Shown: positions 81 through 36,487, counted from the stretch's first letter. The stretch: DNA of 39,639 bases from a virus (IMGVR_UViG_3300030107_004353:1-39639), one strand, 5' to 3'. The notes: generated by a model from the letters alone, not told the origin. Made by a program: numbers and translations.

Positions 81-1447
81 TTGGTACTATTTCAACTGGT
101 GTTTGGCAAGGAACTGCTATAGCTTCTGGTTATATAGCAGCCGATGCAATTACTGGTGCAAAAATAGCAGACGATGCACTTGACAGCGAACATTATACTG
201 ATGGTTCAATAGACACAGCTCATTTAGCTGCTGATGCTATTACAGGAGCTAAGATAGCCGATGATGCTATTAATAGTGAACACTATACAGATGGCTCGAT
301 TGATACTGCTCACATAGCAGATGACCAAGTTACTCTTGCAAAAATGGCAGGATTAACTAGAGGTAGTTTAATTATAGGGGATTCAAATGGTGACCCTTCT
401 GCGTTAGCAAAAGGTACTGCAAACTATATATTAACATCAGATGGCACAGATATTGCTTGGGCTGCTGCTCCTGATGCAACTAACGCATCTCATGTGTTAG
501 TAACAGATAACGAAAGCACAAATGAAGAAAACTTAATTACTTTTGTTGAAGGGGCTACAAGCTCTACTGGTAACGTAGGATTAGAAATGGATGGCAATCT
601 TACATATAACCCTAGCAGTGGAACATTAACGGCAACAGCATTTGCTGGAGCATTAACTGGTAACGTAACTGGTAATGCAAGTGGTACAGCAGCTACAGTA
701 ACATCAGGTACTCAAGCTAATATAACTACATTAGCCAATTTAACAACAAGTGGTGCTTTAAACGCAGGTTCAATTACATCTGGCTTTGGTACCATTGACA
801 CAGGTTCATCTGCTATTTCAACAACAGGTGCAGTAAGAACTGGTGATATTAATTTAGGACACGCATCTGATACTACGTTAGCAAGGTCAGCAACAGCTGA
901 AGTAACTATTGCAGGTACTTTAATAAAAAAAGTTGGTACAGAAAATATGTGGGTTCCAGCAACTGCTATGACTCCTAGAGATAACGCAGGATGTGCATCA
1001 ATAACTACAGTAGCAGCAGGCACAAATGGGCAACCAGACTTTCATGTATTAGATTTTGATAAAGATAGTACAGAATTTGCACAATTTTCAGTAGCAATGC
1101 CTAAGTCTTGGGATGGAGGAAATATTTATGCTTATTATTACTGGATAGGGCATACAGATACAAATGAAGTTAGATGGGACATACAAGTATTGTCAATAAA
1201 TAATAACGAGGAACTTGCTCAAGGATATGGGTCAGTAGTAGGCGTTACCGATACATCTTTAAATGACGCAACCAGAATAGCAATTAGTGATAAGACTAAT
1301 GCTATAGCATGTGGTGGTGCAGATAATGATTTATTATGTTTTCAAGTATCTAGGGACCATGACCACGCTGATGATGATATGGACGGAGATGCTAGACTGT
1401 GGGGAATATTGTTTGAATATACAACAAGTGCTAGTACGGATGCGTAA
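1..1447 (+). CDS. Tail fibre protein, C-terminal part (continues from 38955 across the junction)
   Basis: The frame is open from base 2 and continues the gene that starts at 38955; the joined product is 683 aa. The first recognisable ATG here (344) is internal, not a start. The N-terminal third of this part has a perfectly spaced 30-residue tandem repeat (bases 137-316). A block around TDNESTNEE and DGNLTYNPS (about 505-640) is a diverged copy of the block near 39450-39580, so the shaft grew by duplication. The last 170 residues lose the Thr/Gly/Ala-rich repeat character and contain Trp and Tyr, as expected for a globular tip or trimerisation domain. The low-complexity beta-rich style and the place after the tail genes indicate a fibre or receptor-binding role. 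The next gene starts directly after the stop. Confidence 0.8.
   Translation, partial: NPSTGRLTATQLAGTIQTASQTNITGVGTISTGVWQGTAIASGYIAADAITGAKIADDALDSEHYTDGSIDTAHLAADAITGAKIADDAINSEHYTDGSIDTAHIADDQVTLAKMAGLTRGSLIIGDSNGDPSALAKGTANYILTSDGTDIAWAAAPDATNASHVLVTDNESTNEENLITFVEGATSSTGNVGLEMDGNLTYNPSSGTLTATAFAGALTGNVTGNASGTAATVTSGTQANITTLANLTTSGALNAGSITSGFGTIDTGSSAISTTGAVRTGDINLGHASDTTLARSATAEVTIAGTLIKKVGTENMWVPATAMTPRDNAGCASITTVAAGTNGQPDFHVLDFDKDSTEFAQFSVAMPKSWDGGNIYAYYYWIGHTDTNEVRWDIQVLSINNNEELAQGYGSVVGVTDTSLNDATRIAISDKTNAIACGGADNDLLCFQVSRDHDHADDDMDGDARLWGILFEYTTSASTDA
137..316 (+). repeat. Two tandem 90-bp repeats encoding a 30-residue fibre unit
   Basis: Units 137-226 and 227-316 both encode AADAITGAKIADDA, a Leu-Asp or Ile-Asn variation, then SEHYTDGSIDTAH. 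A third partial unit (IADDQVTLAKMAG) follows. The DNA differs at many third positions while the protein is nearly identical, so the duplication is old and held by selection. Such units usually form the repetitive shaft of a phage fibre. Confidence 0.9.
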
Positions 1448-2380
1448 ATGGCAAGATTTGGGTATACAGTATTAGGCTTTGGTAGTTTTACAGCAGGGTC
1501 TGTTGCTGTAGGTGTATGGTCAACTGGAGCTGACCAACTTAGTTCAAATAGATTTGCTTCTGTAATATTAGGAAACTCAGCAGCAGCAACAATAGCAGGT
1601 GGATATGGTAGTGGTGGTCAAGTAGCTACTTCTGAAGATTGGGATGGTAATGCTTGGGAAGCTAGTGATGACAATTTATCAGCAGCATCTCATTCAGCAA
1701 CAGGTGGTGGTGGTGCGAGTGATGGTATATATATAGCAGGAAATAGGTCTGGGTCTGCAAGCAAAGTTACAGAAGATTGGAATGGTAGTGCTTGGGCAGC
1801 TAGTGATTCATGTAATTCAAACCATATTAACGGTGGTGGTTCAGCAGATAGTAAAAATGCTGCTATTGCTGTTGGTGGATATGCAAGTGGTGCTACAAGT
1901 GTTGCAGAAAATTATAATGGTTCTTCTTGGACAAATCTTGCTAGTGGATTAACTGCTAGATATTATTTACCCAACAATGCTTGTGGAGGAGCAACCAACT
2001 TTGCAGCAGTTACAGGAAAAAATGCTTCAGATGCAAGAGTAACTACTAACGAACATTGGACAGGTTCTATGGGAACTACAGGGTCTTGGGCAACAAGTGA
2101 TGCTATTACTACAGCTTTAGATGAAGACCCAGCGTGTTTTGGAAAGACTGCTGCTACTGACATAGTAGTTAGTCATGGTGAAACTGCTAGTGGTCCAGCA
2201 GGAACTACCTTAGAATATTTTTCAGGTGCATGGAGAACTGGTCCTACTGCCCCAGCAAGTGTTAGAAACAACTATGGTGGTGGTCAAACTGGTGCTGGTA
2301 TAACTGCTGGTGGATATTTAGAATCAGCAGGTGCATATCAAGATGATACTCGTATATATACAAGAGGTGGAAGCACATGA
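1448..2380 (+). CDS. Kelch-like beta-propeller fibre or adhesin
   Basis: A 310-aa Gly/Ser/Ala-rich protein starting immediately after the fibre stop. A motif of the form D-W-x-G-x-x-W recurs about every 46 residues: near 64-70, 110-116, 154-161, 203-214 and 257-262. Most copies are preceded by a Gly-Gly or similar turn and a beta strand. This spacing matches blades of a kelch or galactose-oxidase-type beta-propeller with five or six blades. There is no signal peptide. Next to the main fibre, a receptor-binding or fibre-tip role is the best inference. The four-base overlap with the next gene indicates co-translation. The family assignment rests on the repeat pattern only. Confidence 0.65.
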   Translation: MARFGYTVLGFGSFTAGSVAVGVWSTGADQLSSNRFASVILGNSAAATIAGGYGSGGQVATSEDWDGNAWEASDDNLSAASHSATGGGGASDGIYIAGNRSGSASKVTEDWNGSAWAASDSCNSNHINGGGSADSKNAAIAVGGYASGATSVAENYNGSSWTNLASGLTARYYLPNNACGGATNFAAVTGKNASDARVTTNEHWTGSMGTTGSWATSDAITTALDEDPACFGKTAATDIVVSHGETASGPAGTTLEYFSGAWRTGPTAPASVRNNYGGGQTGAGITAGGYLESAGAYQDDTRIYTRGGST

Positions 2381-2643
2381 GATATTGGTTAGTAGAAAAT
2401 ATTAATGCAAATACCACTCAAGGCAACGAAATAAAAAGACTTGAAATTAAAATGTATGGCAAGATTTTCACTACAAATAATAAGTGGGCAACAACTAACT
2501 GGGGAACTAGAGTTAGTGCAGTAGAAAAAACTAAAGCACAAGCACAAGCTATATTAGATGATAGAAGGAGTACAGTTGCTTCAGAGTGGGATGATTATCC
2601 AAGAAGCGTGAATGTACAGTCAGCAAGAGAGGTATTGCCATGA
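2377..2643 (+). CDS. Small unknown protein after the fibre genes
   Basis: An 88-aa protein starting in an ATGA overlap with the kelch-like gene. It is rich in Asn, Thr, Lys and Trp, has no cysteine, signal peptide or membrane segment, and ends in a mixed alpha-helical stretch (KTKAQAQAILDDRRSTVASEWDDYPRS). I do not recognise a family. Its stop overlaps the start of the next gene, so it belongs to the same transcription unit. A small virion or fibre-associated protein is possible, but nothing in the sequence proves it. Confidence 0.7.
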   Translation: MRYWLVENINANTTQGNEIKRLEIKMYGKIFTTNNKWATTNWGTRVSAVEKTKAQAQAILDDRRSTVASEWDDYPRSVNVQSAREVLP

Positions 2644-3269
2644 AAGATTTTCCAGCATTGTCAGATAAAAATGCAAAGAAAATGGAAGAATTGCGTAAAG
2701 AAGTAGAGGATTCTTTTAATAAAAAACAAATATATAGAACTGAAACTCAAATGCGTTATTCTGTTTTAAACGATTCTAGTTTTCCTACTAGAGCAGGTAA
2801 GTATTGGCAATGTGTAAGAGAACAAGCAAGTATGTACGAAAACTTAGCTTGGCTTTCTTTTGAGTACAGGCAACACGCAATAGAGTTAGAAAAAACAAAA
2901 GAACAGCACGAAAAAGCCACAGATAAATATGAAAAGCAACTTCTTCAGATAGAAATAGAAAAGCTAGAATGGAAAATAAAAGATGCTGAAAGAGTTGGCA
3001 ATGATAGGGTACGAGAAATTGAACTGTGGTCTAAGTTAAAAAAAGAATTAGATGATGGTAGTTTTGATACTAAAAACGTAGAAACAGACAGTCTTGATGC
3101 TGTGCATAAAGCATTACTATCAAGAGCAGACGTACTTAATCCTTATCATAATCCTAGTGAAATTTTGAATGTTCATGGTCCATTAGATACAATCAAAAAA
3201 GATATAGATATATCTCTGTCAGATGCAGAGCATATTAAAAAGGGTCTAAGTCATAAGGAGGAGAAATGA
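2640..3269 (+). CDS. Helical coiled-coil protein, unknown
   Basis: A 209-aa charged protein, overlapping its neighbours by four bases at each end. Residues about 70-145 are a continuous Lys/Glu-rich helix with heptad-like spacing of hydrophobics, so a coiled coil is likely. The N-terminal half has aromatic residues (YWQCVREQASMYENLAWLSFEYRQHAIE) that could form a small helical bundle. No enzyme motif or membrane segment is seen. The 3' end carries the strong ribosome site AAGGAGGAG for the next gene. Its position between fibres and probable lysis genes does not settle its role. Confidence 0.7.
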   Translation: MKDFPALSDKNAKKMEELRKEVEDSFNKKQIYRTETQMRYSVLNDSSFPTRAGKYWQCVREQASMYENLAWLSFEYRQHAIELEKTKEQHEKATDKYEKQLLQIEIEKLEWKIKDAERVGNDRVREIELWSKLKKELDDGSFDTKNVETDSLDAVHKALLSRADVLNPYHNPSEILNVHGPLDTIKKDIDISLSDAEHIKKGLSHKEEK

Positions 3270-3475
3270 CTACTGAAGAACAAGTTAAACAGGATTTACT
3301 AGCTTTAGTCCAAGTTAGAAATCAAAGAATAGCCGAACTTGAATTACAAAATTTGGCTTTAAGTAGAAACCAGTGCAAAGGAGAGTGCGACAATGCCAAT
3401 GGGGAAAGCATACAAGTACAAAAAGCCGAAAGTAAAGACAAGAAAGTCTTCGGTGAAAAGCAAGAAGCCAAATAG
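3266..3475 (+). CDS. Short coiled-coil protein, unknown
   Basis: A 69-aa protein with the strong ribosome site AAGGAGGAG inside the previous gene and an ATGA overlap. Residues 3-35 form an amphipathic Leu/Gln/Glu helix; the rest is Lys/Glu-rich and probably disordered, with two cysteines in KGECD context. No membrane segment and no known family. It could pair with the longer coiled-coil protein just upstream, which is inference from adjacency and similar character. Confidence 0.65.
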   Translation: MTTEEQVKQDLLALVQVRNQRIAELELQNLALSRNQCKGECDNANGESIQVQKAESKDKKVFGEKQEAK

Positions 3476-3484
3476 GAGGAGATA

Positions 3485-3715
3485 ATGATGAAATTATTTA
3501 CATCGTTAATGCCATTAATACCACAACCATATAAGAACATTATCAAATTCTTTATATCTACACTTAAAAATGTAAATGAAAAGGAAGAACTAGAAAGAAT
3601 AGGTAAACTGTTCGCTGATATTCTTGAAGATGGACACGTTAGTCCTCAAGAGTGGTTGTCACTAGCAGGTAAAAATGGATTAGGTATATTATCAGGTAAT
3701 GGCTCAAAGAAATGA
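3485..3715 (+). CDS. Small helical protein before the membrane-protein cassette
   Basis: A 76-aa protein with the ribosome site AGGAGGAG followed by two adjacent ATG codons (3485 and 3488); either may be used. The N-terminal 30 residues are moderately hydrophobic with a proline (SLMPLIPQPYKNIIKFFIST) and could form a membrane-surface helix. The rest (ERIGKLFADILEDGHVSPQEW) looks like a small soluble helical domain. The stop overlaps the start of a two-helix membrane protein, so the two are translationally coupled. A role with the lysis cassette is possible. Confidence 0.65.
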   Translation: MMKLFTSLMPLIPQPYKNIIKFFISTLKNVNEKEELERIGKLFADILEDGHVSPQEWLSLAGKNGLGILSGNGSKK

Positions 3716-3864
3716 TAGGTAAGTTAAGACCTCAGATTTTTTTGGCTATAGTAGTTCTAGGCATATTAGCAGCTATTGGTGCATTAAAAGGTGTGCCTGA
3801 ACTAGCAACTGCTACCATAGGTGGCATAATAGCATTAGGCATGAAAGTCCTAGAGAATGAATAA
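3712..3864 (+). CDS. Holin-like two-helix membrane micro-protein
   Basis: A 50-aa protein in an ATGA overlap with the previous gene, and its stop TAATG overlaps the next start. It has a short positive N-terminus (MIGKLRPQ), a hydrophobic segment at about 9-25 (IFLAIVVLGILAAIGAL), a Gly-Val-Pro turn, a second hydrophobic segment at about 31-45 (ATATIGGIIALGM), and a charged tail. Two short transmembrane helices in about 50 residues fit a class II-like holin. No sequence family is recognised, so the call rests on topology and on neighbouring small membrane proteins. Confidence 0.55.
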   Translation: MIGKLRPQIFLAIVVLGILAAIGALKGVPELATATIGGIIALGMKVLENE

Positions 3865-4145
3865 TGGAAGTACAAATAGGTAAAACTAAATATAATGTTA
3901 CCTTCGGCTCAGTATTATTCGTATTAACCACATTAGTAGCAATCATAGGTACTTATGTTACTTTGCAAACTAATATAGCCACAATGCAACAAGACATTGA
4001 AACTCTCCAAGCTGAAGTAAAAGAAGTTAAGGAAAACTCTGGTGCAACTGGGATTATTGAACTTAGAGGATTGCTAGACGTAACATCTACAAAGCTGAAT
4101 TACATAGAAAAGACACTAGATGCTCTTGATTCAGCTATAAGATGA
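3864..4145 (+). CDS. Single-TM coiled-coil membrane protein, possibly spanin- or antiholin-like
   Basis: A 93-aa protein overlapping the two-helix membrane protein by one base. One transmembrane helix lies at about residues 15-34 (SVLFVLTTLVAIIGTYVTL). A long coiled coil follows at about 36-90 (MQQDIETLQAEVKEVKE). A membrane anchor followed by a periplasmic coiled coil is the layout of an inner-membrane spanin, and some holin partners share it. No lipoprotein partner is visible, so the assignment is tentative. The ATGA at its end couples it to the next micro-gene. Confidence 0.55.
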   Translation: MEVQIGKTKYNVTFGSVLFVLTTLVAIIGTYVTLQTNIATMQQDIETLQAEVKEVKENSGATGIIELRGLLDVTSTKLNYIEKTLDALDSAIR

Positions 4146-4267
4146 GTAAGAAACGTAAAGAAGTAGACCTAAGAAAAAAGACTAAGAAGAAATTATATGT
4201 TTCTACCTTTTTGCTTGGGTTGTGTTTAGCAGGTATGATAATTATAGGAGAAGTAAACGCAAGATGA
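4142..4267 (+). CDS. Basic single-TM micro-protein
   Basis: A 41-aa protein overlapping both neighbours by four bases. The first 18 residues contain 10 Lys or Arg residues; one hydrophobic helix follows (YVSTFLLGLCLAGMIIIG). The short tail is EVNAR. The layout (positive-inside N-terminus, one helix, almost nothing outside) could be a membrane regulator, a small holin partner or a signal-anchor peptide. A single Cys in LGLCLAG resembles a lipobox (L-x-L-C), so processing as a tiny lipoprotein is a second possibility. Confidence 0.5.
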   Translation: MSKKRKEVDLRKKTKKKLYVSTFLLGLCLAGMIIIGEVNAR

Positions 4268-5574
4268 AACGAATTTGGAAAACATTTAAAGATTTTGTAG
4301 TTCCTTTTCTTAAAGGATTCGGAAGCACAACCTTAAAAATTATAACTCTACTATCTGTTTGTATAGGTGCAGTAGGTCTTGCTATTACTCTTATTAATCC
4401 AGTTAACTTATGGTGGACTATATCTCCGATTGAAACAAGATACTTTGTTATTGGTTACTCTTTGGTTATAGAGTACCTAGAGTTCGTGCAATTATATTAT
4501 TGGTATAGCATTGGCTTATCTGCGAGTTTAATTGTTTTTGGGTACTCCATACACATTAGGAGCTTAAAAGCGTTATATGAGGGTATTAAGGCTTCTCCAA
4601 GGGCATTATTATATTCTCCGATAACTATTTATAGAGAACTTGTAGAGTTTAGGGATTGGTTATTTGAAAAGATTGAATATCTAAATGGGGAGTCAGCTAA
4701 GTGGAGAAGGTTCTTTAATATAATGAAGAGTCCGTACAGTTTGCTTCGTAGCTTTGGATTAAGTCCTCAGCTTGCAATTACGCTGCTAGTAGGTGCAGGT
4801 GCTACAGGTACAGCAGTAGGTGTGGCAGAAGTTATACAGGAGAGAAGTTTCTCAAATGGGGACGCAGGTATATATCTTGCACCATCAAACTTACCTAACG
4901 AGGATTTAGAAAGAGAAATGGCGTTTAGAAAAGACGGACCTGACAATACGCTTAGAGTAATTCTTAATGAAACTCCTGTAGAGGAAGTAAATATATCTAA
5001 CGTAAACCTAGGAACGTCATTTGCAAGTAATGGACAACCATCTGCTCTACCATCAGGAAAGACCGAGGCGATATTAATAGACGGAAACGGAACTAGGATT
5101 GAGATAGGAAAGCTGACGTTTTCTAGGAACAGTTGCAAGACTCTTAATTTAGAAAATATAAACGCAAACAAAGTAACTATTAAGGACAACCAAGCAGACG
5201 GATTGTCTATATATCAAAGTGCTACAAGCACACAACCAAACCTAAGAGTAAGTGGTGGAAACTACATGAGTGATTTACTAGAAACTTCTGGTGGTACTTA
5301 TGACCGACTTTGGATTGCACCTTTAGATAGCCTTACTACATCAGTAACTAGGGTTAACACAATGATATTGGATAACATCGTATCTAGTGGGGGAACTTGT
5401 GATTTAAAGAAACTGAATATCGGAGAACTTGTTATTGAGTTCAATAGAATAGGTGGAGATAGTTCATTGGTAAGCAAAGCGTTTACTGTGAGTTCTACTG
5501 TTAAAAGTGCTAATTGGTCAGTAACAGGTAACATTGAAGTTCTTATGGCAGAAGTAGCGAGGCAACCTGACTAA
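4264..5574 (+). CDS. Membrane-anchored protein with large beta-rich C-terminal domain
   Basis: A 436-aa protein. I chose the ATG at 4264 (ATGA overlap with the micro-gene) over the ATG at 4222, which would add 14 residues and lie within the upstream gene. Residues about 24-43 are a clear transmembrane helix. Residues 58-100 contain one or two more, rich in Tyr. Residues about 168-188 (LAITLLVGAGATGTAVGVAEV) look like a last Gly/Ala-rich helix. From 190 to 436 the protein changes to short beta strands with Asn/Ser/Thr turns (VNISNVNL, LNLENINANKVTIKD, MILDNIV), suggestive of a right-handed beta-helix. No enzyme motif is seen. Possible roles are superinfection exclusion, lysis or surface modification; none is proven. 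Confidence 0.6.
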   Translation: MKRIWKTFKDFVVPFLKGFGSTTLKIITLLSVCIGAVGLAITLINPVNLWWTISPIETRYFVIGYSLVIEYLEFVQLYYWYSIGLSASLIVFGYSIHIRSLKALYEGIKASPRALLYSPITIYRELVEFRDWLFEKIEYLNGESAKWRRFFNIMKSPYSLLRSFGLSPQLAITLLVGAGATGTAVGVAEVIQERSFSNGDAGIYLAPSNLPNEDLEREMAFRKDGPDNTLRVILNETPVEEVNISNVNLGTSFASNGQPSALPSGKTEAILIDGNGTRIEIGKLTFSRNSCKTLNLENINANKVTIKDNQADGLSIYQSATSTQPNLRVSGGNYMSDLLETSGGTYDRLWIAPLDSLTTSVTRVNTMILDNIVSSGGTCDLKKLNIGELVIEFNRIGGDSSLVSKAFTVSSTVKSANWSVTGNIEVLMAEVARQPD

Positions 5575-5946: not shown

Positions 5947-6336
5947 TTATATTGGCACATCTAACGAGGAATCAAGACTTTTTTGTATGCGTCTTTCATC
6001 TTTTCTTATGTCTGCAGTTAACTCTAGGAATGTTTCTAGTTCCATTGTGATTAAGTGAACCGCGTTGCTATTGTTTACCTTATGTGTTTGAGCAACTATA
6101 GGTATCTTTCTAGTTGCGTTGCCAGCATCTCGCGCCTGTTCTACTGCCTTAAGTGTCCTACTCGACACAACCTTACCTGCCTTAACTTCAAGTGCAAACC
6201 TGTGTGATTCCACATCAGGAACATGACCGTCAGTGCCAGACCTTCCTGTAACAGGGTTTCTTTTTGCACCTACCTCGCGACCACCAATAGCTTCAGCCCA
6301 CCAACGTTCCCATTTTTTCCAAGTTGACTTATCCAT
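5947..6336 (-). CDS. PD-(D/E)XK nuclease, Holliday-junction-resolvase-like
   Basis: A 129-aa protein, the last gene of the minus block. The core pattern is G-T-D at 34-36, P-D at 40-41 and E-V-K at 50-52 in the string PDVESHRFALEVK. This is the PD-(D/E)XK active site with D41, E50 and K52. An acidic N-terminal helix (KKWERWWAEAIGG) precedes it. Small phage proteins of this type act as resolvases or structure-specific nucleases, cleaving branched DNA during recombination or before packaging. Its start overlaps the helicase loader gene by eight bases, and GAAAGG serves as ribosome site. A host-DNA-degrading endonuclease is an alternative. Confidence 0.75.
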   Translation of the reverse strand: MDKSTWKKWERWWAEAIGGREVGAKRNPVTGRSGTDGHVPDVESHRFALEVKAGKVVSSRTLKAVEQARDAGNATRKIPIVAQTHKVNNSNAVHLITMELETFLELTADIRKDERRIQKSLDSSLDVPI

Positions 6337-7201
6337 TTCTGTTTGCCTTTCTCCTTACACTAGCCCCTTGCAAGATTACGTGCTTAGATAGCGAGTAGTC
6401 TTGTAATCTATCTGCACACGCTGAGCCAAGATATTTAGCCCACTCAGATTGATTGATGTTGCTAGTGATAAATGTTGGGAGTTTGGTTTCATAACGTGTG
6501 TCTATTATGTCGAACAAGACCTGCCTACTCCAATCAGTAGCGTACTCTTGCCCTAAATCGTCTAACACAAGATAGTTTATTTTTTCAATTTTATCAAGGT
6601 ACTTAATCCACTTATCGCTACTGTGTTGAGAAATCCATGACCTACTGTTGCTCATGATTTGACGAACCGTGGTGTAATAGACTGACTTGCCCATCCCGAT
6701 TAGGTTTGATGCCGAAGCCTTAGCTAAGTGTGTCTTGCCTAGACCCGGAGGACCTGTCATGATTAACCAAGGATTAGCCTTGTCGTTTATCCAATCAATA
6801 ACAGTTTGCTTTGCGTGTGCTCCATCATCATACATAGAGCCATCAAACGTGCTAAACATAGGTATGTCTGACCCCTGCACAAGACCCGACTGCTCCCAAA
6901 GAAACTGTTTCTGGTTACCTGCAGTCTCAGCAATTAAACAAGCACATGGAAAAGCTTTCCCAAAATCAGGGTGCCCTACTGCAAAGTTCCCACCTAGCCA
7001 CTTATCTCCCTCGCAGACACATTCTTTGGGTGCCTTCCACCTCACACTAGGGTCTTTCTCTGCAGACTTTGAGAGTTCGTTTAACTCTGCCATTGTGTAG
7101 TTACTTGATAGTTTGTTTGACTTATCAGGTAGCACAGGAACTTTGCCCTGTGCTACTTTTCTTGGGTCTAAATCATCAAACAATGGTTTGAACTCACTCA
7201 T
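6329..7201 (-). CDS. DnaC/IstB-like helicase loader ATPase
   Basis: A 290-aa AAA+ protein. Walker A is GPPGLGKTH with K156, Walker B is YLVLDDLGQE with D214 and D215, and a sensor-1 segment TFITSN follows; this order and the length suit the DnaC/DnaI loader family. An N-terminal region contains CVCEG, then CACLIAE, possibly a metal site. A loader would bring a hexameric helicase onto phage DNA. No helicase gene is seen here, so host DnaB is the probable client. The start at 7201 is in an ATGA overlap with the preceding small gene and lacks a strong ribosome site, so it depends on coupling. Confidence 0.85.
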   Translation of the reverse strand: MSEFKPLFDDLDPRKVAQGKVPVLPDKSNKLSSNYTMAELNELSKSAEKDPSVRWKAPKECVCEGDKWLGGNFAVGHPDFGKAFPCACLIAETAGNQKQFLWEQSGLVQGSDIPMFSTFDGSMYDDGAHAKQTVIDWINDKANPWLIMTGPPGLGKTHLAKASASNLIGMGKSVYYTTVRQIMSNSRSWISQHSSDKWIKYLDKIEKINYLVLDDLGQEYATDWSRQVLFDIIDTRYETKLPTFITSNINQSEWAKYLGSACADRLQDYSLSKHVILQGASVRRKANRNG

Positions 7202-7668: not shown

Positions 7669-8661
7669 TTACAGGTTCGACTCTTCCTGTACGTCTGATA
7701 CGGAATCTTCTGTTTCTATTACTACCTCGTCCTCCATAACTCGTGAAATCTCACAGTTCTGGTAGTTTTTCTCCCCTTTGTTTTCAAAGGTAAGGCTCAC
7801 AAGGACTCTTGTCCCATTCTCAAGACCTCTATACATTTCAGGACGCTCCTCAAAGATGAACGGAGATACGTTGTACTCATCCCATCTAGGTTTGTATCCC
7901 TCAACTGTAAACACATCCAAGAAAGTAATCTTGGCATAAGGTCTCCCATTTGCTGATTGCAATTCAGTGAACGTGTTGATAGTAAGTTCTTTTGCCTCTG
8001 TTCCCATCTTGGTCTCATCTTTCCATTCCTGCTTGAAATGGGTCTGAGCGTTACCTGTGTCGCTCTGTTCCGTAGGAACAGAGTCAGCAACGTATGGTTT
8101 GGTAGTAACTTCAGGTTCAGGTACATTCACAACAGTTTGCGTACCATCCTCTGCCCACTCTACATCTGCACCAAGTTCAGATGGCTCGTATGCACCTGTG
8201 CCATTGAATGCGTCAGGACAATACCATTTAGCACCATTAGTCATGGCTCTTGCATAGAGCATATTTCGTGGGTATTTTGTAAAGTTTGGGTTCTTAAGCA
8301 GGTCAGCTTTTTGTGCATCCTCAACAGTAAATGTTGAATTTCCCACAATTTCCCAATTACTTTCAGACTTCTCAAGAAAGTCTATTGAACACACCTTATC
8401 GGTGTGCTCTTTTACTCTGTAGTTGTATTTCCCCGACCTCTTTAGCATGTCAGCAAACTTATGTGAGTAAAACGAGGGTTTCCCTTGCACTACATAAATG
8501 CTTGTCATTGCTTCAAAAGGTCCTAGCCCGAACTCATGTCCTGCCATGATTGTAACCAAGGCTTGTTGAGGGCTCTTGAATTGCGAGAAAAGACCTGACT
8601 CAACAAAGTCTTTTGCAATTCCTTTCATGTCGTTATACGACATAGGTAAGTTATCTGCCAT
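7669..8661 (-). CDS. RecT-like single-strand annealing protein
   Basis: A 330-aa protein with the pattern of the RecT-type recombinase group: QQALVTIMAGHEFGLGPFEA (32-51), IYVVQGKPSFYS (55-66), RSGKYNYRVKEHTDKVC and KYPRNMLYARAMTNGAKWYC (129-148). This region is the annealing core that binds single-stranded DNA. Residues about 225-310 form a separate beta-rich segment after an acidic Thr/Ser linker and may be an OB-like or partner-binding domain; that part is inference. RecT proteins pair complementary strands in phage recombination, often with an exonuclease; no classical exonuclease gene adjoins it, only the PD-(D/E)XK protein downstream. GAAGGAGAA serves as ribosome site. Confidence 0.75.
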   Translation of the reverse strand: MADNLPMSYNDMKGIAKDFVESGLFSQFKSPQQALVTIMAGHEFGLGPFEAMTSIYVVQGKPSFYSHKFADMLKRSGKYNYRVKEHTDKVCSIDFLEKSESNWEIVGNSTFTVEDAQKADLLKNPNFTKYPRNMLYARAMTNGAKWYCPDAFNGTGAYEPSELGADVEWAEDGTQTVVNVPEPEVTTKPYVADSVPTEQSDTGNAQTHFKQEWKDETKMGTEAKELTINTFTELQSANGRPYAKITFLDVFTVEGYKPRWDEYNVSPFIFEERPEMYRGLENGTRVLVSLTFENKGEKNYQNCEISRVMEDEVVIETEDSVSDVQEESNL

Positions 8662-9137
8662 TACAGTTCTCCTTCTATTTCGATTGTGTTCTTGATAAGA
8701 CTTTGAGCCTTGTCAAGAATTTGTTGTTGTATCACTCTATTTGGGTTGATTTTAATTGTCAATCCTGACTCACGCCTTGCATCTGCGATGCGATTAGCAA
8801 CAGTCCCTTTGTATTTCTTAGAGATAGAATTCAAGTGAACTCCATTTGCTTTTGGTCTTGCAGGGGGCTTGAATAGTTTAGCCTTATCCTCATCACTAAC
8901 ACCATCAATATCCTCAATGGTTCTGATAATCGCAGGGTCCCAGTCCACAGATGTGTACTCTCTCCTAATCTCTACGTCAGCCACATTTACTGCATCAAGC
9001 TTATCAGGATGCTTAGCAAATTTTTGCATTATATCCTGTTTTGATTTAGAAGCCTGACTTTTTGCGTACTTAGCAAGTGCTTCCCAAACCAAGTAACTCT
9101 CTACTTCGTCCGGGAATATTTCATAGTCCTCACTCAT
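8661..9137 (-). CDS. Unknown protein upstream of the RecT-like gene
   Basis: A 158-aa soluble protein whose start is preceded by GAAGGAGAAATG. It is acidic in the first half (EDYEIFPDEVESYLVWEALAKYAK) and basic in the middle (PPARPKANGVHLNSISKKYKGTVANRIADARRE). The basic helical part could contact nucleic acid. The last 30 residues are an amphipathic helix. No family is recognised. Its stop overlaps the start of the RecT-like gene by one base, so a role with recombination is a fair inference, but not more. Confidence 0.65.
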   Translation of the reverse strand: MSEDYEIFPDEVESYLVWEALAKYAKSQASKSKQDIMQKFAKHPDKLDAVNVADVEIRREYTSVDWDPAIIRTIEDIDGVSDEDKAKLFKPPARPKANGVHLNSISKKYKGTVANRIADARRESGLTIKINPNRVIQQQILDKAQSLIKNTIEIEGEL

Positions 9138-9571
9138 AGTGGCATTTCTCCTTCCTTAGGCTCGATGTATTTCTCATCGAACACTGTTTCCTCTTGGTCT
9201 TCCTCTCCCTCTTGTGTATCGGTATCGTCTAGTCCAAAGCCCTCAACCAAAGGAATTGATTGCTTTTCCTCCTCTGTTAATGAATCATTTTCCAGATTCA
9301 TTTCCTCATCAGTTACTGCCTTAGCCTCTACAGTAGGCTCATCACGCTCAGCCAACACCTCGTCCAATGCGTCCTCTGGAACACTGACTGTAAACTGTGG
9401 TTGCTTCTCAGTCTTGAGCGTAATCATTCCTGTACCTTTACAATCTACGCAAGGCATCCCTGCTATAGGTGTCTTGCTCTTTATTCTTTTGTCTCCATAA
9501 CGTGAGATTGTTTGCACGTATATGTCTCCATAGCCCTTACATTCAGGGCAAAATTTTGGTTTACCCGGCAT
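9134..9571 (-). CDS. DnaJ-type zinc ribbon protein with acidic tail
   Basis: A 145-aa protein in two parts. Residues 8-50 carry two C-x-x-C-x-G-x-G units (CPECKGYG with C8 and C11; CVDCKGTG with C41 and C44), the pattern of the DnaJ central zinc region but with only one pair of units. Residues 55-145 are strongly acidic and Thr/Glu-rich, probably disordered. A zinc knuckle plus acidic tail could be an adaptor or DNA-mimic-like protein. There is no J domain. The ribosome site is AAGGAGAACA and the ATGA end is coupled to the next gene. Confidence 0.7.
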   Translation of the reverse strand: MPGKPKFCPECKGYGDIYVQTISRYGDKRIKSKTPIAGMPCVDCKGTGMITLKTEKQPQFTVSVPEDALDEVLAERDEPTVEAKAVTDEEMNLENDSLTEEEKQSIPLVEGFGLDDTDTQEGEEDQEETVFDEKYIEPKEGEMPL

Positions 9572-10136
9572 TTTGTTCTCCTTCCCAATTCAATGGTAGT
9601 TTGTATTCGCCAGTTTGTTCTTTCCATTCGCCTACCCTTCTCTCCCTGTTACCTTGCCTATCGACTATGCTGTAACGTATGGGAGCAGCAAACGAACGAC
9701 CTTTGTACCCATTCATACCTACTCTTATCAGTGCATAATCTGATTTATTGTCAGGATGGATTGACTTCATGTCTCCATATTCCTTGACTAATTTCTTAGA
9801 TGCACCTGTAGCCTCAGTAATAACTGCGTACATAGTTGCGTTTGTATCCTCTGCCACATGTTCTATAAAGTTTGACCACATCGATTTGTCCTCGGGTAGC
9901 ATCGCTAGAACAGGGTATGGCATGGTCTTGAGCATTTTTCTATCTACTCCAAACCTAGTTAGTGCCTTGAAGAACTTGTCTTCATGGTCTTGAATCTCAG
10001 GGGGAACCTTAGTTCTATCGGCTAATACCATTAGAACCGAGGTAACCTGCCCCGTAGTGTACGTCTGTTGGTCTATCATTAACTTTAACGATTGAACCAT
10101 TGCGTTACTTATTTTATCTAGTTCTTTTCTTTCCAT
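9561..10136 (-). CDS. Unknown protein next to the VWA gene
   Basis: A 191-aa protein starting two bases after the VWA-gene stop, with AAGGGG as ribosome site inside that gene's end, so the two are coupled. The first 70 residues are helical; the last 60 (SDYALIRVGMNGYKGRSFAAPIRYSIVDRQGNRERRVGEWKEQTGEYKLPLNW) look like a small beta-sheet domain. No catalytic motif is apparent and no family is recognised. It follows directly after the MoxR and VWA genes, so it is a candidate third component or client of that pair. Confidence 0.65.
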   Translation of the reverse strand: MERKELDKISNAMVQSLKLMIDQQTYTTGQVTSVLMVLADRTKVPPEIQDHEDKFFKALTRFGVDRKMLKTMPYPVLAMLPEDKSMWSNFIEHVAEDTNATMYAVITEATGASKKLVKEYGDMKSIHPDNKSDYALIRVGMNGYKGRSFAAPIRYSIVDRQGNRERRVGEWKEQTGEYKLPLNWEGEQNAG

Positions 10137-10138
10137 TA

Positions 10139-11845
10139 TTACCCCTTGAAAAACGTCAACACTTGCGTGATGTCGTGGTTTGTTATTTCATTGTAATCGT
10201 CATGTTGTATGGACAGTTCTACAGGCAGTGGATGCTTATTCATATCCTTGCCGTAACTCCCATTGACATCTTGAAGGTACATGGTTGCAAACCTTATACC
10301 TTTGTTTCCCCAAGCATTTGCTCTTGATGCCACACACTCACGAGCTTTTTTCTCGGCTTCCTTCCTTGAATTTGACAAGCCTGTGTAGCAGTTGTTAGGT
10401 TCCCCGTCTGTAATGATGAGAACCTTTGCATTCGTTAGGTCAATGCTTTCCTCAAGACCTTTCATGGCACCACATAAAGGTGTGTTACCTTTAGAAATGT
10501 CAGGATAGGTATTAGGAGCAATAGGAACCAAAACTGCATTAACCCCCTTAATCCTATTAGAATGCCCTATTCCACCTGTAAACCCATAAGCTTTGGTGTC
10601 AGGAAACCTGTCCATTACTGCAGTAGTTACGCTTAGCGCTTTGTGCATTCGACTAAATTTGCTTCTAGTGCCCCCCATAGAGGACGACATATCCACAAGA
10701 ATAACCATTTCTGTTGCAGTCTGAGGGTGCTTAACGAAAATGTTTGGGTCTCCTAAAGCAGGTAGCCTCCAAGCATTTCTTGAAACGCGATGCCCTGATG
10801 CACTAATCTTGCGTGAATTCCTATCCAACGCGCCTTCCAACTCTTGAGAGTCAAGCCTAATGCTAGTCTCAAAGGACAAGTTAACGGCATCATCTATAAT
10901 CTCAGCTCCACACTTATTGCCTGTAGTCAGCTTTTCTGCAGATTCTATCGCATCTTTGTTTTCAACCTCATCATTAACAACATCTTGAAATGTCGCATCC
11001 TCTTGTATCTCAGCTACGCCTGCAACCATACGTTCTGCGTTATCTTTGCCTTGTTTGCTTTCTTGCACTACTGCATCCGTTACTGCTTTCACAGTCTCTG
11101 CCACAACATCCTCGGTGCTTACGTTGGGTGCTACGTCTTGTGGAGCAGTGTTCTCCTCTTTCTCAAGATGAAACCTAGATGCAATCTCCAATGCTGCAAG
11201 TATGCTAGTAGTGGGATTAACTGAGTCTCTAACCCTTGCTATTGCATCCTTATGCTTTCTGCATATATCCTCAATAATCGGGTCTTTAATGTCGCGAAGA
11301 GTAGCGTTTTGGTACAGGTATTGTCGGAACCAACCAAAGCGTAGTTCGTAGTCATCCCCCTTATTCCCTCTCAAATGGTGCACACCCCTTAAGTACCCTG
11401 ATTCTGCATCTAAGCTTTTCACGTCTTTAATGTGGTCTCGCCATATCTTTGGTCTATGGAAATGCTCACTAGCTTTCTTTGCGCAACGTCTATTCTCGAA
11501 TATGCTATAAACCTCATCGAAAATCTTTAAAGCAACCCTACTGTTAGACAGATTCATGGGGTCGCCTTCTCCTGCAAGTTGCTTCGCTAACTTTGCCTTA
11601 ACCTGCTTCGCTAACTTCTTTGGATGGAACTTAACTTGCCCTATCGTAAGCAAGTTAGCATTGAATGGCAGTCTACCCGTAGGTTTCTTGATAACCCACG
11701 CGTCTCCATAGGTGCTTACACCTGAATCGTACGTGCCACCCTTAGAATTCTCAACCTGAACCTCATTATTAAGCCCTGCAACGTGTTGCAGGAAATTCAT
11801 GTGGTCTTTGGTCTCGTCTTGTGGTTTTCTGTATTGCTTTTTCAT
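10139..11845 (-). CDS. VWA-domain protein, CobT-like partner of the AAA+ ATPase
   Basis: A 568-aa protein with a C-terminal von Willebrand factor A domain. A complete MIDAS metal site is present: D385-x-S387-x-S389 in ILVDMSSSMGG, T455 in GNTPLCGAM and D480 in IITDGEPNN. Residues about 245-350 are acidic and Val/Asp/Glu-rich, like the linker in CobT-type proteins. The N-terminal 230 residues are basic and Lys/Arg-rich and of unknown fold. In the chelatase and MoxR-VWA groups this domain works with an AAA+ ring to insert metals or remodel protein complexes. The AAA+ gene lies eight bases upstream, as in those groups. The substrate here is unknown. GTAGGAGAACA is the ribosome site. Confidence 0.8.
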   Translation of the reverse strand: MKKQYRKPQDETKDHMNFLQHVAGLNNEVQVENSKGGTYDSGVSTYGDAWVIKKPTGRLPFNANLLTIGQVKFHPKKLAKQVKAKLAKQLAGEGDPMNLSNSRVALKIFDEVYSIFENRRCAKKASEHFHRPKIWRDHIKDVKSLDAESGYLRGVHHLRGNKGDDYELRFGWFRQYLYQNATLRDIKDPIIEDICRKHKDAIARVRDSVNPTTSILAALEIASRFHLEKEENTAPQDVAPNVSTEDVVAETVKAVTDAVVQESKQGKDNAERMVAGVAEIQEDATFQDVVNDEVENKDAIESAEKLTTGNKCGAEIIDDAVNLSFETSIRLDSQELEGALDRNSRKISASGHRVSRNAWRLPALGDPNIFVKHPQTATEMVILVDMSSSMGGTRSKFSRMHKALSVTTAVMDRFPDTKAYGFTGGIGHSNRIKGVNAVLVPIAPNTYPDISKGNTPLCGAMKGLEESIDLTNAKVLIITDGEPNNCYTGLSNSRKEAEKKARECVASRANAWGNKGIRFATMYLQDVNGSYGKDMNKHPLPVELSIQHDDYNEITNHDITQVLTFFKG

Positions 11846-11853
11846 TTGTTCTC

Positions 11854-12669
11854 CTACGATGTAAAGTGTGCAGTTGCTGATGTCATAACAACTGATTGGT
11901 AGTCAGCCTGTACCTTGTCTCTGAGGTTAATTCTGATAGCATCAACTGCTTCAAATCCTCTACCCACAAGTTTGGCTAAGTAACACAAATCTCTTGTAGA
12001 AATGTATGTAACAGGTTCTTTCCTCATGTCGTCTGCCCAATTCATAAATGCCTGAGCATACTGTTGGTCTCCACCAAGTATGTCCTCTAATGCGAGTTTC
12101 TCCTCACATAGTGGCTCTGTAACGAACTTGTAAATCATCATCCTAGACTTGAGAGCCTCGTCAAGATTCACAACGTTGTATCCTGCTGATGGTGGATTCG
12201 CAGTGGAAAGTAACTGGAATTCAGGATGAACCTCAATCTTTTCTCCACCATTCTCGGTAAGAGTAAGTATCCTAGTCTCATCTGTGACCCCCATAATTCT
12301 GCCAACGTGTTGTTGGTTTAGTCTTGTGATTTCGTCCATTAATAAGAACGAACCTTCTCTTGATGCACGCGTTAACGGACCGTCTGCCCAAGTCATAATA
12401 GGACGTCCTTGTTCATCGGCTTTTGATTGCCAACCACCAACTACGTCAATGATGTCCAATCCCGGATGGCAACCAACGTACTCGGCTTTCTTGCCTGACT
12501 GTTTAATTACCTCGTGCATTACTTGTGTCTTACCACAACCTGCAGTACCTAGCACTGCGACAGGGAATGGTGCGACTTTCTTTATGTCCTCAATCAAGTC
12601 GAGACCTGCTTGAGTAAATCTTGGTTTATGAGTTCTTTCTCGAACTGTTTTTAATTGCATGTGTGCCAT
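11854..12669 (-). CDS. MoxR/CobS-like AAA+ ATPase
   Basis: A 271-aa protein from ATG 12669, chosen because AAAGGAGAACAC stands directly before it; the longer form from 12738 reads back through the neighbouring small gene. Walker A is GTAGCGKT (41-48, K47); Walker B is FLLMDE with D112 and E113; a sensor region LLSTANPPSAGYN and the arginine-rich ALKSRMMIYKF follow. This order is typical of the MoxR/CobS branch of AAA+ proteins. It presumably forms a hexamer that drives conformational change of the VWA protein encoded next. CobS-type genes occur in some cyanophages, where they are proposed to act in cobalamin synthesis or tail assembly, but a cobalt chelatase needs CobN, absent here. Confidence 0.85.
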   Translation of the reverse strand: MAHMQLKTVRERTHKPRFTQAGLDLIEDIKKVAPFPVAVLGTAGCGKTQVMHEVIKQSGKKAEYVGCHPGLDIIDVVGGWQSKADEQGRPIMTWADGPLTRASREGSFLLMDEITRLNQQHVGRIMGVTDETRILTLTENGGEKIEVHPEFQLLSTANPPSAGYNVVNLDEALKSRMMIYKFVTEPLCEEKLALEDILGGDQQYAQAFMNWADDMRKEPVTYISTRDLCYLAKLVGRGFEAVDAIRINLRDKVQADYQSVVMTSATAHFTS

Positions 12670-12679
12670 GTGTTCTCCT

Positions 12680-12850
12680 TTATTTAAGCACTCGTTTTCT
12701 AACGTCCTCTGCATAAGCCATGAGGTACTTATATTCATAAGACTTCATGAGTTCTGCTCTTTGCGATGACTCTAGTTTTTCAATAGCATAGATAAGCGTT
12801 TGTGCCCTCATTGCTAGTTCTTGTAATCGTTCTCCGATTGTTACTTGCAT
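12680..12850 (-). CDS. Small helical protein ahead of the MoxR gene
   Basis: A 56-aa protein with ribosome site AAAGGAGAACTT. It is entirely helical in character: MQVTIGERLQELAMRAQTLI, then an amphipathic continuation ending in VRKRVLK. It is the first gene after the promoter at 12864-12901, so it is co-transcribed with the MoxR and VWA genes, and it ends ten bases before the MoxR start. It has no cysteine or membrane segment. It could be an adaptor or regulator of the ATPase, which is inference from position only. Confidence 0.65.
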   Translation of the reverse strand: MQVTIGERLQELAMRAQTLIYAIEKLESSQRAELMKSYEYKYLMAYAEDVRKRVLK

Positions 12851-14048: not shown

Positions 14049-14326
14049 TCTTGCTCCTCATCTAGTTCCTTAAAGTATTCCAATGCATTTTCGTATTCTG
14101 CATCTAGTTCATCGTCATCATATTGGTACAATGCTGTTTCTCCTGTGTGTAATCCTTGTAACTCGTGCAAGATGTCGCCAAAATTTCCACCTTCCCAACC
14201 TTCTGACCAATATTCAAGTATTGCTTCTATCTTGTCATATCGTGTAACTTTTAATTTAGAAATCATATCCTCTACATTCCCCCGTAAATGCTGGTCACGT
14301 CTATTAATCTCGTCTTTAATACTCAT
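14045..14326 (-). CDS. Acidic helical unknown protein with EEQE end
   Basis: A 93-aa protein from ATG 14326, in an ATGA overlap with the upstream gene and behind GGAGAGCAAGA; the longer form from 14386 lies inside that gene. Residues 1-40 are mixed charge (KDEINRRDQHLRGNVEDMISKLKVTRYDKI), then EYWSEGWEGGNFGDILHELQGL, and a very acidic end ELDAEYENALEYFKELDEEQE. No motif is recognised. The strongly acidic C-terminus might mimic DNA or bind a host protein; this is speculation. Confidence 0.65.
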   Translation of the reverse strand: MSIKDEINRRDQHLRGNVEDMISKLKVTRYDKIEAILEYWSEGWEGGNFGDILHELQGLHTGETALYQYDDDELDAEYENALEYFKELDEEQE

Positions 14327-14751
14327 TCTTGCTCTCCTATCTCCCAATATCTTCTGTCCTCTGAAGGTCGTTTCCATATCCCCCATGAGTTAGCTTCTAC
14401 AATGTTCCACATAAGTTCGCTTATGTCCTCCCAATCATTTTCCTCATCTCTAATCATTCCGTAGTTTGCTCCATTAGGTCTAAGTAAGTTTATGTCGTGA
14501 TAATCTCCTAGTATCTCTACCCTGTCTCCAGCCCATGAACCTGCTAGTTGCTCACTATCGTAAGGCATTTGCATATCATTAGGCATAGAAAAGTCGCCAC
14601 TTTGGTCTAGTGGACTAGCCAATAGAAATCCTAGTGCTGACATAGTTCCCCTGCCACCTATAAATTCAGTCGCTTTTAAGCCCTCGCCAAATTTATGTGG
14701 GTTTAAGAATTGTTTTTTATCGTAGTTTACAGGCATAAAATATTGTCCCAT
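14323..14751 (-). CDS. MGQYF-type small protein of unknown function
   Basis: A 142-aa protein behind the strong site AAAGGAGAACATT. The beginning MGQYFMPVNYDKKQFLNPHKFGEGLKATEF resembles a group of phage and actinobacterial small proteins that open M-G-Q-Y and carry an F-L-N-P-H segment; I know of no assigned function. Further conserved-looking parts are GSWAGDRVEILGDYHD and ISELMWNIVEANSWG. It ends GEQE, again built from the next ribosome site. Possibly an intracellular modifier; catalytic residues cannot be named. Confidence 0.65.
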   Translation of the reverse strand: MGQYFMPVNYDKKQFLNPHKFGEGLKATEFIGGRGTMSALGFLLASPLDQSGDFSMPNDMQMPYDSEQLAGSWAGDRVEILGDYHDINLLRPNGANYGMIRDEENDWEDISELMWNIVEANSWGIWKRPSEDRRYWEIGEQE

Positions 14752-16640: not shown

Positions 16641-16662
16641 TAAAGCTTTTAAAGTTATTTAG

Positions 16663-35135: not shown

Positions 35136-36487
35136 TGGCTACCACAACTGCATTAAGCGCAATACTCCCTCAGCTTGGAAGAAGAATCGGCTCATACATA
35201 GGTTCTTTTAGTACAACAACTGCTATTGGGGGAACAGGGTCATTAACTGTAGTAATTTCTACAGAACTTAGAGATATAGGTTTTACAGATGATGATGTAT
35301 TAAATGATTCTTTTATTAAGATTACAAGTGGTAACAACCTTAATGAAGTTAGGCTTATATCTGATTACACAGGTAGCACCGGAACAATTACAATAACAGG
35401 GACTGATTTGACTGGAGATAGCAGCACAGGAACTACATTTGAAATTTACAGATATGACCCTGACCAACTAAGAGATTCGCTTAATGATGCAGCAAGGCAG
35501 GCTTTTCCAGCTTTATTTAAAAGGGTTGATGACAGGACTCATACCGTTGCGCCCGGACAGGCACGTTACGCAAGACCATCAACTATAGAGCCGGGTTATA
35601 TAAGGCAGGTATATTTAGTACCCAAGATTGAGTCAAAGACATACTCAGAGAATATCCTTAAAGACCAGAACTGTGATTTTGAAGAAAGTTCGAGTGCATT
35701 AACTGATTGGAGTGACTCAGCCAACATCACAGATGCAGTAGAGGCTGATACTACTACCCCAAATAACTTTATGGTTTACAGGGGAGACCAATCAGCCAAG
35801 CTAACATGTGCAGCAACAAGCACAGGAACTTTTACAATATCAGTGACTGACCCTACCAATTACGAATCAGAAGAGCTAAACTTTTCTATATGGGTATATT
35901 CAAAATACGCAAGCCTTGTATCGCCGATAATACAAATAGATTCAGACACTGCCACTTCAGGTACAGCCCACAGTGGAGGTGGCTGGGAAAGATTGACAGT
36001 CTCTGCTACAGCCTCAAACGTTGGAAGCACAATAAAAGCAGGCTTAACTTTCGCAAGCAACAGCGCAATATATACTGTATATGCAGACGAAGCTATCCTA
36101 ACTTCTGGTCCTAGCGAAGTACCTATAGCTTATGAGGCTATTGTTTTTGACTGGTCAGAAGAAGGAGATAACTTAGTATTTAATACACAACAACCATCTC
36201 ACTATAACTTGCATATAGTAGGTTGTGGTGCATTGGAAACATTAACTGCTGGTGCAGATACAATTACCCTTGAGCCACATCGTGTTAACTTGCTTGTGGA
36301 CTATGCAGCACTCACTTTCTTTGAGGGAGAGCTAGACCAGACTTCTGCTGAAGACCAGAATGCTATATTAAGACAGATAACTCACTACCGAAATAAGACT
36401 CAGAACGGCAGAGGAGAGATGGTAGCCCCTACCTTGAAGAAGAATTTGCTACCTGCAGCCGGCTCAACTTCATACGGGATTTACTGA
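35135..36487 (+). CDS. Tail or connector protein with carbohydrate-binding-like insert
   Basis: A 450-aa protein overlapping its neighbours by one base each. N-terminal 110 residues are beta-rich; residues 110-135 form a conserved-looking helix (DQLRDSLNDAARQAFPALFKRVDD) as in adaptor-type tail proteins. Residues about 174-325 have the course of a beta-sandwich carbohydrate-binding module (CDFEESSSALTDW, then NFSIWVYSK, GGWERLTVSAT, YADEAIL). The last 120 residues return to helix. The insert resembles one in the next gene. An adaptor or head-to-tail protein with a glycan-binding insert is the best guess. Confidence 0.6.
   Translation: MATTTALSAILPQLGRRIGSYIGSFSTTTAIGGTGSLTVVISTELRDIGFTDDDVLNDSFIKITSGNNLNEVRLISDYTGSTGTITITGTDLTGDSSTGTTFEIYRYDPDQLRDSLNDAARQAFPALFKRVDDRTHTVAPGQARYARPSTIEPGYIRQVYLVPKIESKTYSENILKDQNCDFEESSSALTDWSDSANITDAVEADTTTPNNFMVYRGDQSAKLTCAATSTGTFTISVTDPTNYESEELNFSIWVYSKYASLVSPIIQIDSDTATSGTAHSGGGWERLTVSATASNVGSTIKAGLTFASNSAIYTVYADEAILTSGPSEVPIAYEAIVFDWSEEGDNLVFNTQQPSHYNLHIVGCGALETLTAGADTITLEPHRVNLLVDYAALTFFEGELDQTSAEDQNAILRQITHYRNKTQNGRGEMVAPTLKKNLLPAAGSTSYGIY

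Follow-up and report, generated by a model that had tools for sequence, protein, structure and literature searches.

A MoxR-type ATPase and VWA protein pair beside RecT in an uncultured virus, possibly serving phage recombination or replication

What does a virus gain from an ATPase of the MoxR type that is encoded together with a von Willebrand factor A (VWA) protein? The question is raised by one IMG/VR virus record (IMGVR_UViG_3300030107_004353), all 39,639 bases of which were analyzed and are called the window here. On its minus strand, a 271-residue AAA+ ATPase (11854 to 12669) is followed after 8 bases by a 568-residue VWA protein (10139 to 11845), in a block of genes that also encodes a RecT-like single-stranded DNA (ssDNA) annealing protein (7669 to 8661; phrog_4171, 8.9e-15; phrog_561, 1.2e-14). 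The kind of pair is already known, since phage MoxR-VWA ("CobST") pairs have been published. We believe that this one may serve the phage's own recombination/replication machinery as a remodeling motor, a reading that we put at a little under even odds (roughly 0.45); its precise client within that machinery is much less certain. This target is favored over a virion complex or a metalloenzyme because the constant neighbors of the pair and the closest relatives of the VWA protein point there. Hence, of the function proposed in the first-pass annotation, made from the sequence alone, the MoxR-VWA remodeling pair stands, while the virion or metalloenzyme target is not the best reading.

The open reading frame (ORF) of the ATPase spans 11854 to 12738, with the ATG at 12669 as the likely start, because a strong ribosome-binding sequence (AAAGGAGAACAC) precedes it and the same length of 271 residues is found in nine relatives, that is, in all ten aligned family members. 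The numbering of the Walker residues in the first-pass annotation fits this start, with Walker A at GTAGCGKT (K47) and Walker B at LLMDE (D112, E113), and sensor 1 (N158), R176, and an STRDL motif complete the set. The protein has an AAA_5-type core (Pfam AAA_5, 4.6e-19) in which the Walker A, Walker B, and sensor residues are invariant in ten ATPase sequences. In a phmmer search of the PDB it matched midasin (6e-49) most strongly, followed by NorQ (9.6e-20) and CbbQ (4e-19). CbbQ_C (PF08406) reached 19.2 bits against a cut-off of 20.6, NCBIfam gave only a weak GvpN-type match, and the nearest rows in a profile comparison were a haloarchaeal MoxR and NorQ-type proteins. The ATPase therefore probably belongs with the NorQ/CbbQ/midasin branch, a branch that uses VWA partners.

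The VWA protein consists of a helical N-terminal part (about residues 60 to 310), a linker, and a C-terminal VWA domain (about 330 to 568; Pfam VWA_2, 3e-06, above the cut-off). Its length, its distance from the ATPase, and its intact metal ion-dependent adhesion site (MIDAS; D385, S387, S389, T455, and D480) had been recorded correctly before, and the MIDAS residues are invariant in 10 of 10 VWA proteins. The AlphaFold2 single-chain model is of moderate confidence (pLDDT, 64). Its best PDB match is the VWA domain of NorD in the NorQD complex (Z, 14.1; root-mean-square deviation, 3.4; 182 residues), which we read as a match to the VWA fold with a slight preference for NorD, because other VWA domains score 12 to 13. 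Rows for MutS, Ku, and DnaB in the Foldseek list of the same model were not used, being low-TM long-helix or generic VWA-fold matches. No fold was identified for the N-terminal half, which the structure search barely probed. Profile searches of the kind the first-pass annotation had proposed thus matched AAA_5 and VWA_2, and the CobT family was not matched: Pfam CobT and CobT_C (PF06213/PF11775) gave no match to the VWA protein at an E value of 0.1. The HExxH metallopeptidase motif is absent from the N-terminal part of the VWA protein in the window, L012, L070, and L072, and is present in the VWA proteins of IncC, a Klebsiella plasmid, cyanophages, CRP-810, and ICP2. In the L012 protein (8819 to 10687), the VWA domain is interrupted by some 80 additional residues, at a place where the NorD-like finger or a loop might lie.

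Searches with the VWA protein itself returned nothing, either by tblastn of the window and L012 proteins against 50,697 phage records or in a single-protein scan of IMG/VR. Relatives were reached only via the ATPase, RecT, and terminase, scans with which found fourteen further contigs of uncultured viruses; several are near copies, and we count about six lineages. Eleven of these contigs reach the ATPase (L002 to L007, L012, L048, L049, L051, truncated within the ATPase, and the L052 record), and all eleven keep the order 56-residue protein, ATPase, VWA protein, 191-residue protein, zinc protein, 158-residue protein, and RecT as far as each contig extends. The remaining three (L047, L050, and L054) are terminase-bearing fragments that yielded no ATPase and no RecT; their early region is apparently uncovered, and they are uninformative. 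All seven relatives found with RecT carry the pair, and every terminase-reached record with RecT also has the ATPase. The first-pass annotation had envisaged that the pair might turn out scattered or degenerate in relatives; it is intact and inseparable, and the ATPase, the VWA protein, and their 56- and 191-residue neighbors stay together in the uncultured virus relatives that cover the region.

Identity to the window is 54 to 87% for the ATPase in nine relatives and falls to 33 to 35% for the VWA protein, with the Walker and MIDAS residues unchanged. In the nearest relatives the contrast between the partner genes is large (ATPase, 85 to 87%; VWA protein, 47 to 49%). Ratios of nonsynonymous to synonymous substitution rates (dN/dS, Nei-Gojobori) are 0.09 to 0.23 for the ATPase, 0.22 to 0.46 for the VWA protein, 0.11 to 0.21 for the 191-residue protein, and 0.26 to 0.52 for the 56-residue protein. 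Purifying selection on the ATPase is strong.

Plasmids and integrative and conjugative elements (ICEs) offer the most informative comparison. One plasmid-type match of the window ATPase lies in a Salmonella genomic island record, in a region that we take to be IncC-like, with the order MoxR, unknown, ssb, bet, YqaJ exonuclease, DUF3150, and VWA; another, on a MOBH Klebsiella plasmid, stands in the order ssb, recT, exonuclease, unknown, MoxR, DUF3150, and VWA. Operons of this type hold Bet or RecT, YqaJ exonuclease, MoxR, DUF3150, and VWA, and ssb is often among their genes. A species-genome scan with these two MoxR proteins led to 80 loci, in which the partner genes were sought with profiles built first from the two plasmids and then improved with the loci themselves. 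An annealing protein was found within 9 kb of MoxR in 72 of the 80, an exonuclease in 73, DUF3150 in 74, and a VWA protein in 70, all on the MoxR strand. At 70% identity the MoxR proteins form 14 clusters, 12 of them with an annealing protein; the other two are a cluster from Succinivibrio and a single short contig of Lachnospiraceae. A contig from a "Clostridia" metagenome-assembled genome (L083; SAAB01000004.1) carries a Klebsiella-type operon with 100% MoxR identity and is most likely a misbinned plasmid. In the literature, pCAR1 ORF100-103, which encode a VWA protein alongside a MoxR-like ATPase, were already described in 2009 as conserved in R478, Rts1, SXT, and R391 (PMC2642839). In the available text of the SXT-Bet/Exo paper (PMC3118119) and of the other cited papers, a literature covered incompletely, this pair is not tied to annealing recombination.

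The VWA protein links the phage family to these elements. When the phage-family VWA profile was compared on an equal footing with 27 single VWA proteins, 12 of 12 from one plasmid/ICE MoxR clade ranked first (E values, 5e-10 to 1.8e-6), above all 15 others: SSU5 (1.1e-5), cyanophage P-HM2 (3e-5), and CRP-810 (1.6e-4), then other phages, a haloarchaeal VWA protein, and the NorD type (7.5e-3). The clade consists mostly of SXT/IncC-type operons with Bet/RecT and YqaJ exonuclease, and 11 of its 12 VWA proteins have an annealing protein in the sampled locus, with none in the 7-kb contig of L160. Part of the shared signal lies just ahead of the VWA core, where the window has SGHRVSR...GDPNIFVK and IncC has SGKRVDAR...GDTRVFLK.

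Several observations weigh against a role in recombination or replication. The VWA similarity is seen only around the VWA domain, and the ATPase shows no preference for the plasmid/ICE clade by tree or profile: the phage ATPase family forms its own clade (100/100) on a long branch of unsupported placement outside the plasmid/ICE clade (98/95), a separation whose weight is limited by the long branches. The association with RecT may accordingly be convergent or independent, or mere modular co-residence of early genes. Either the VWA protein reveals a kinship and the ATPase diverged or was exchanged, or the RecT association arose twice; both possibilities would fit the proposed function. Furthermore, the 80 loci speak for operon conservation across divergent MoxR and give no frequency among all MoxR, because the seeds, being MoxR proteins of recombination operons, bias the sample. 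RecT as such needs no pair, because the nearest RecT of an isolate (Synechococcus phage S-LBS1, 40% identity) has no annotated MoxR-VWA pair nearby. Finally, at an E value of 0.001 no window protein is matched by the profiles of the annealing protein and exonuclease from the plasmids.

Compared with the SXT/R391 ICE, IncC, and MOBH module, the window likewise has MoxR, VWA, and ssDNA-annealing proteins in one operon (7669 to 12669, one strand), and the VWA proteins of that module are the closest found to its own by profile. In contrast, the phage has no match to DUF3150 in the window, no YqaJ exonuclease that we could find, and no HEAAH motif, and its ATPase lies in a separate clade; it has the 191-residue, zinc, and 158-residue proteins instead. 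Profile comparison gave no support to the 191-residue protein or the VWA N terminus as a DUF3150 counterpart. Viral cobST pairs (cyanophages, CRP-810, ICP2, SSU5, and haloarchaeal viruses) likewise combine adjacent AAA_5 ATPase and VWA/MIDAS genes, often near replication genes, and have been reported from tailed viruses of eight host orders (PMC8651126) and from the Roseobacter phage CRP-810 group (PMC11288001). The window family differs from them in its lack of HExxH and of a CobT match, in its dedicated small partner genes and RecT, and in a VWA similarity that is weaker than that to plasmid/ICE VWA proteins. The earlier remark that some cyanophages carry only cobS needs correction: cobT is misannotated there as a peptidase (PMC8651126), and this neighboring "peptidase" is the VWA partner, with DxSxS and HExxH in P-HM2 and S-CREM1. 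New here are the kinship of the VWA protein to the plasmid/ICE clade, the annealing protein near most plasmid-MoxR relatives, and the phage gene set, in which CobN, DUF3150, and HExxH were not found among the proteins searched and which includes the 191-residue protein as well as a zinc protein whose MPL tail is invariant.

Among the alternatives, the one that survives best is that the pair remodels a host complex or activates a host or phage metalloenzyme, as NorQD and CbbQO do, and lies beside early genes only through acting early. The kinship of the ATPase to the solved proteins midasin, NorQ, and CbbQ and, by profile, to a haloarchaeal MoxR and NorQ-type proteins, the NorD-like fold of the VWA domain, and the known cellular roles of such pairs (PMC9976466, PMC13036017) are consistent with it. 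The ATPase resembles NorQ of Paracoccus denitrificans (1e-19 when rounded) in being compact as well, and midasin (Rea1/Mdn1) shares the MIDAS domain fold, although a single midasin chain holds several AAA modules together with the MIDAS and its target is pre-60S ribosomes. However, no nitric oxide reductase accompanies the phage pair, and the families searched yielded no metalloenzyme in the window; the VWA profile is far from NorD (0.0075) and near the plasmid/ICE proteins, and the constant neighbors are RecT and small cassette genes. We therefore consider this explanation unlikely.

A role as virion-assembly chaperone has been proposed for the pair of jumbo phages (PMC7824862), and there is a precedent in Acidianus two-tailed virus, whose p618/p892 are likewise a viral MoxR-VWA pair and for which interaction and stimulation were shown; p618 is itself a virion component with a proposed role in tail development, and the chaperone role is inferred from the binding data (PMC4124505). 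The window pair, however, sits in the minus-strand recombination operon, outside the plus-strand head/tail block, and lacks the HExxH motif that pairs of the jumbo-phage type have as a peptidase signature. In a small, non-random list of 14 MoxR loci from other phages, scored by depositor annotation, replication/recombination genes lie within 6 to 7 kb at 8, and an annotated structural gene was seen at only 1, at the edge of the P-HM2 locus. These points make a virion role improbable. At one of the 14 loci, in Microbacterium phage Pumpernickel (L021, 6713 to 9073), the gene after the MoxR-like ATPase encodes a protein with a HATPase_c_3 domain, and a VWA protein was not found.

We regard it as similarly improbable that the phage uses the pair as a counter-defense or conflict module, in the manner of the proposed ternary conflict systems that have MoxR-vWA pairs as their cores (PMC7159879). 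The VWA protein does evolve fast relative to the ATPase, but its dN/dS is below 0.5, the neighborhood is fixed in all relatives, PADLOC gave a generic AAA match and no specific defense system, and Pfam searches of the neighbors found no VMAP or effector domain, which a divergent third component could escape. The weakest idea, a cobaltochelatase helper (CobST) that works with the host's CobN so that more vitamin B12 reaches ribonucleotide reductase, has been proposed for viral cobST (PMC8651126) and accords with the ATPase match to phrog_249 ("porphyrin biosynthesis," 2.6e-21), but it is very improbable, the first-pass annotation having already called cobalt chelation unlikely, given the VWA protein without a Pfam CobT/CobT_C match, the great profile distance of the ATPase from phage CobS proteins (those of CRP-810, RHph, and SSU5 rank with the farthest), and the absence of CobN-like, B12-dependent, and ribonucleotide reductase genes among the window proteins searched (a host might still supply CobN).

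If the pair does serve recombination or replication, its mechanism would by analogy follow that of the solved NorQD complex, which both proteins match best or nearly best among solved structures. In NorQD the hexamer of NorQ takes up a "finger" of the VWA protein in its pore; an acidic client residue is believed to dock at the MIDAS, and in the proposed mechanism the NorD linker is twisted and stretched as ATP is hydrolyzed (PMC13036017, PMC9976466). Judging from NorQD and midasin, the phage ATPase would form a hexamer whose pore is plugged by the VWA domain. The client would be gripped through one of its acidic residues by the metal of the MIDAS and then be pulled or twisted at the expense of ATP. 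The genomic context suggests as the likely client the ssDNA-annealing complex of the same operon, that is, RecT-DNA filaments or rings, contacted perhaps via the zinc protein, whose acidic MPL tail is a speculative candidate ligand; alternatively, the client may be a helicase-loading complex. The 56- and 191-residue proteins might act as adaptors or regulators. Because the rings and filaments that RecT proteins build on DNA are stable, a phage in which no exonuclease partner was found would profit from a motor able to dissolve or reset them.

The small cassette genes that flank the pair are real, as first proposed, being conserved in position and sequence in relatives with dN/dS below 1. The first cassette gene (12680 to 12850, minus strand) encodes the 56-residue protein (MQVTIGERLQELA...), which is 82 to 89% identical in L002 to L007 and had no family match in Pfam, PHROGs, and NCBIfam searches; in L012 and L070 to L072 an ORF of 58 to 64 residues with a similar start (IGEHLQ.VA) occupies its position. 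The 191-residue third cassette protein (9561 to 10136, minus strand) is 39 to 59% identical in L002 to L012 and has counterparts of 219 to 222 residues in L070 to L072. Its model found no useful match in the PDB (best Foldseek E value, 0.23; best VIA Z, 4.6) and matched predicted viral structures only, the best (BFVD; E value, 2.9e-5; TM, 0.54) being a 210-residue protein of Mycobacterium phage Catdawg, from its length presumably gp79. This protein was dropped as a homologue because profile comparison does not support the relationship; gp79 adjoins the DNA polymerase III beta subunit and has no annotated VWA protein nearby.

The 145-residue zinc-finger-like protein (9134 to 9571, minus strand; CxxC...CxxCxGxG; weak DnaJ_CXXCXGXG match, 0.0011) has an acidic tail ending in GEMPL. 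Its cysteines and MPL tail are conserved, with (E/D)MPL at the end in all relatives checked. The tail is reminiscent of the C-terminal tips of SSB, and the RecT of L072 ends in EDEMPW. The 158-residue protein (8661 to 9137, minus strand; 45 to 66% identity in relatives) adjoins RecT in all relatives and has no notable family match in Pfam and PHROGs. RecT, co-oriented with the pair on the minus strand as noted in the first-pass annotation, is 61 to 70% identical in near relatives and about 47% in L048/L049.

The minus-strand block runs from 17293 to 5947, with small genes first, then the cassette genes in the order given above through RecT, two small ORFs, a DnaC-like helicase loader (6329 to 7201; phrog_50, 2.1e-43), and, as the final operon gene, a putative Holliday-junction-resolvase-like nuclease (5947 to 6336; weak phrog_2002 match, 8e-4; 71 to 78% conserved in relatives). 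Plus-strand genes occupy 344 to 5574 and 17819 to 38955 and include terminase (phrog_2, 2.1e-21) and portal (phrog_156, 8.3e-5). The pair and cassette genes seem to belong to a more extended operon on the minus strand. A promoter of their own, as first suggested, was not borne out: no minus-strand sigma-70-like site was found between 12851 and 13650, and the count across the region (22) is not above that in shuffles (25.3 +/- 5.1). A strong terminator-like hairpin, 12 pairs followed by seven T, lies at 16641 to 16612 on the minus strand, and terminator-like sites around it exceed shuffles (18 versus 8.8 +/- 2.9). A gene for 142 residues (14323 to 14751) is 82% identical to its L012 counterpart (6444 to 6863), where most neighbors are 37 to 67% identical, which suggests recent exchange. 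At the end of the plus-strand block, an 822-residue protein (36487 to 38955) with a CBM_4_9 carbohydrate-binding domain (3.4e-07) is possibly a host-recognition protein.

In conclusion, we tentatively propose that MoxR-VWA motors of phages, ICEs, and plasmids may, as a class, be remodelers of single-strand-annealing/replication complexes, for which the cobalt chelatase annotation would be wrong. Phage "cobST" genes are widely listed as vitamin B12 auxiliary metabolic genes or virion chaperones, mostly without a demonstrated function, and the tie to an annealing recombinase, together with the VWA kinship to a class of plasmid/ICE operons to which those of SXT/R391 and IncC belong, provides a concrete, testable alternative. 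We know of no RecT/Bet system that uses a dedicated motor. The question can be tested soon, because in vitro and in vivo assays already exist for SXT-Bet/Exo (PMC3118119). If true, the proposal for the class would add a previously unassigned ATP-driven step to recombination of the RecT/Bet type.

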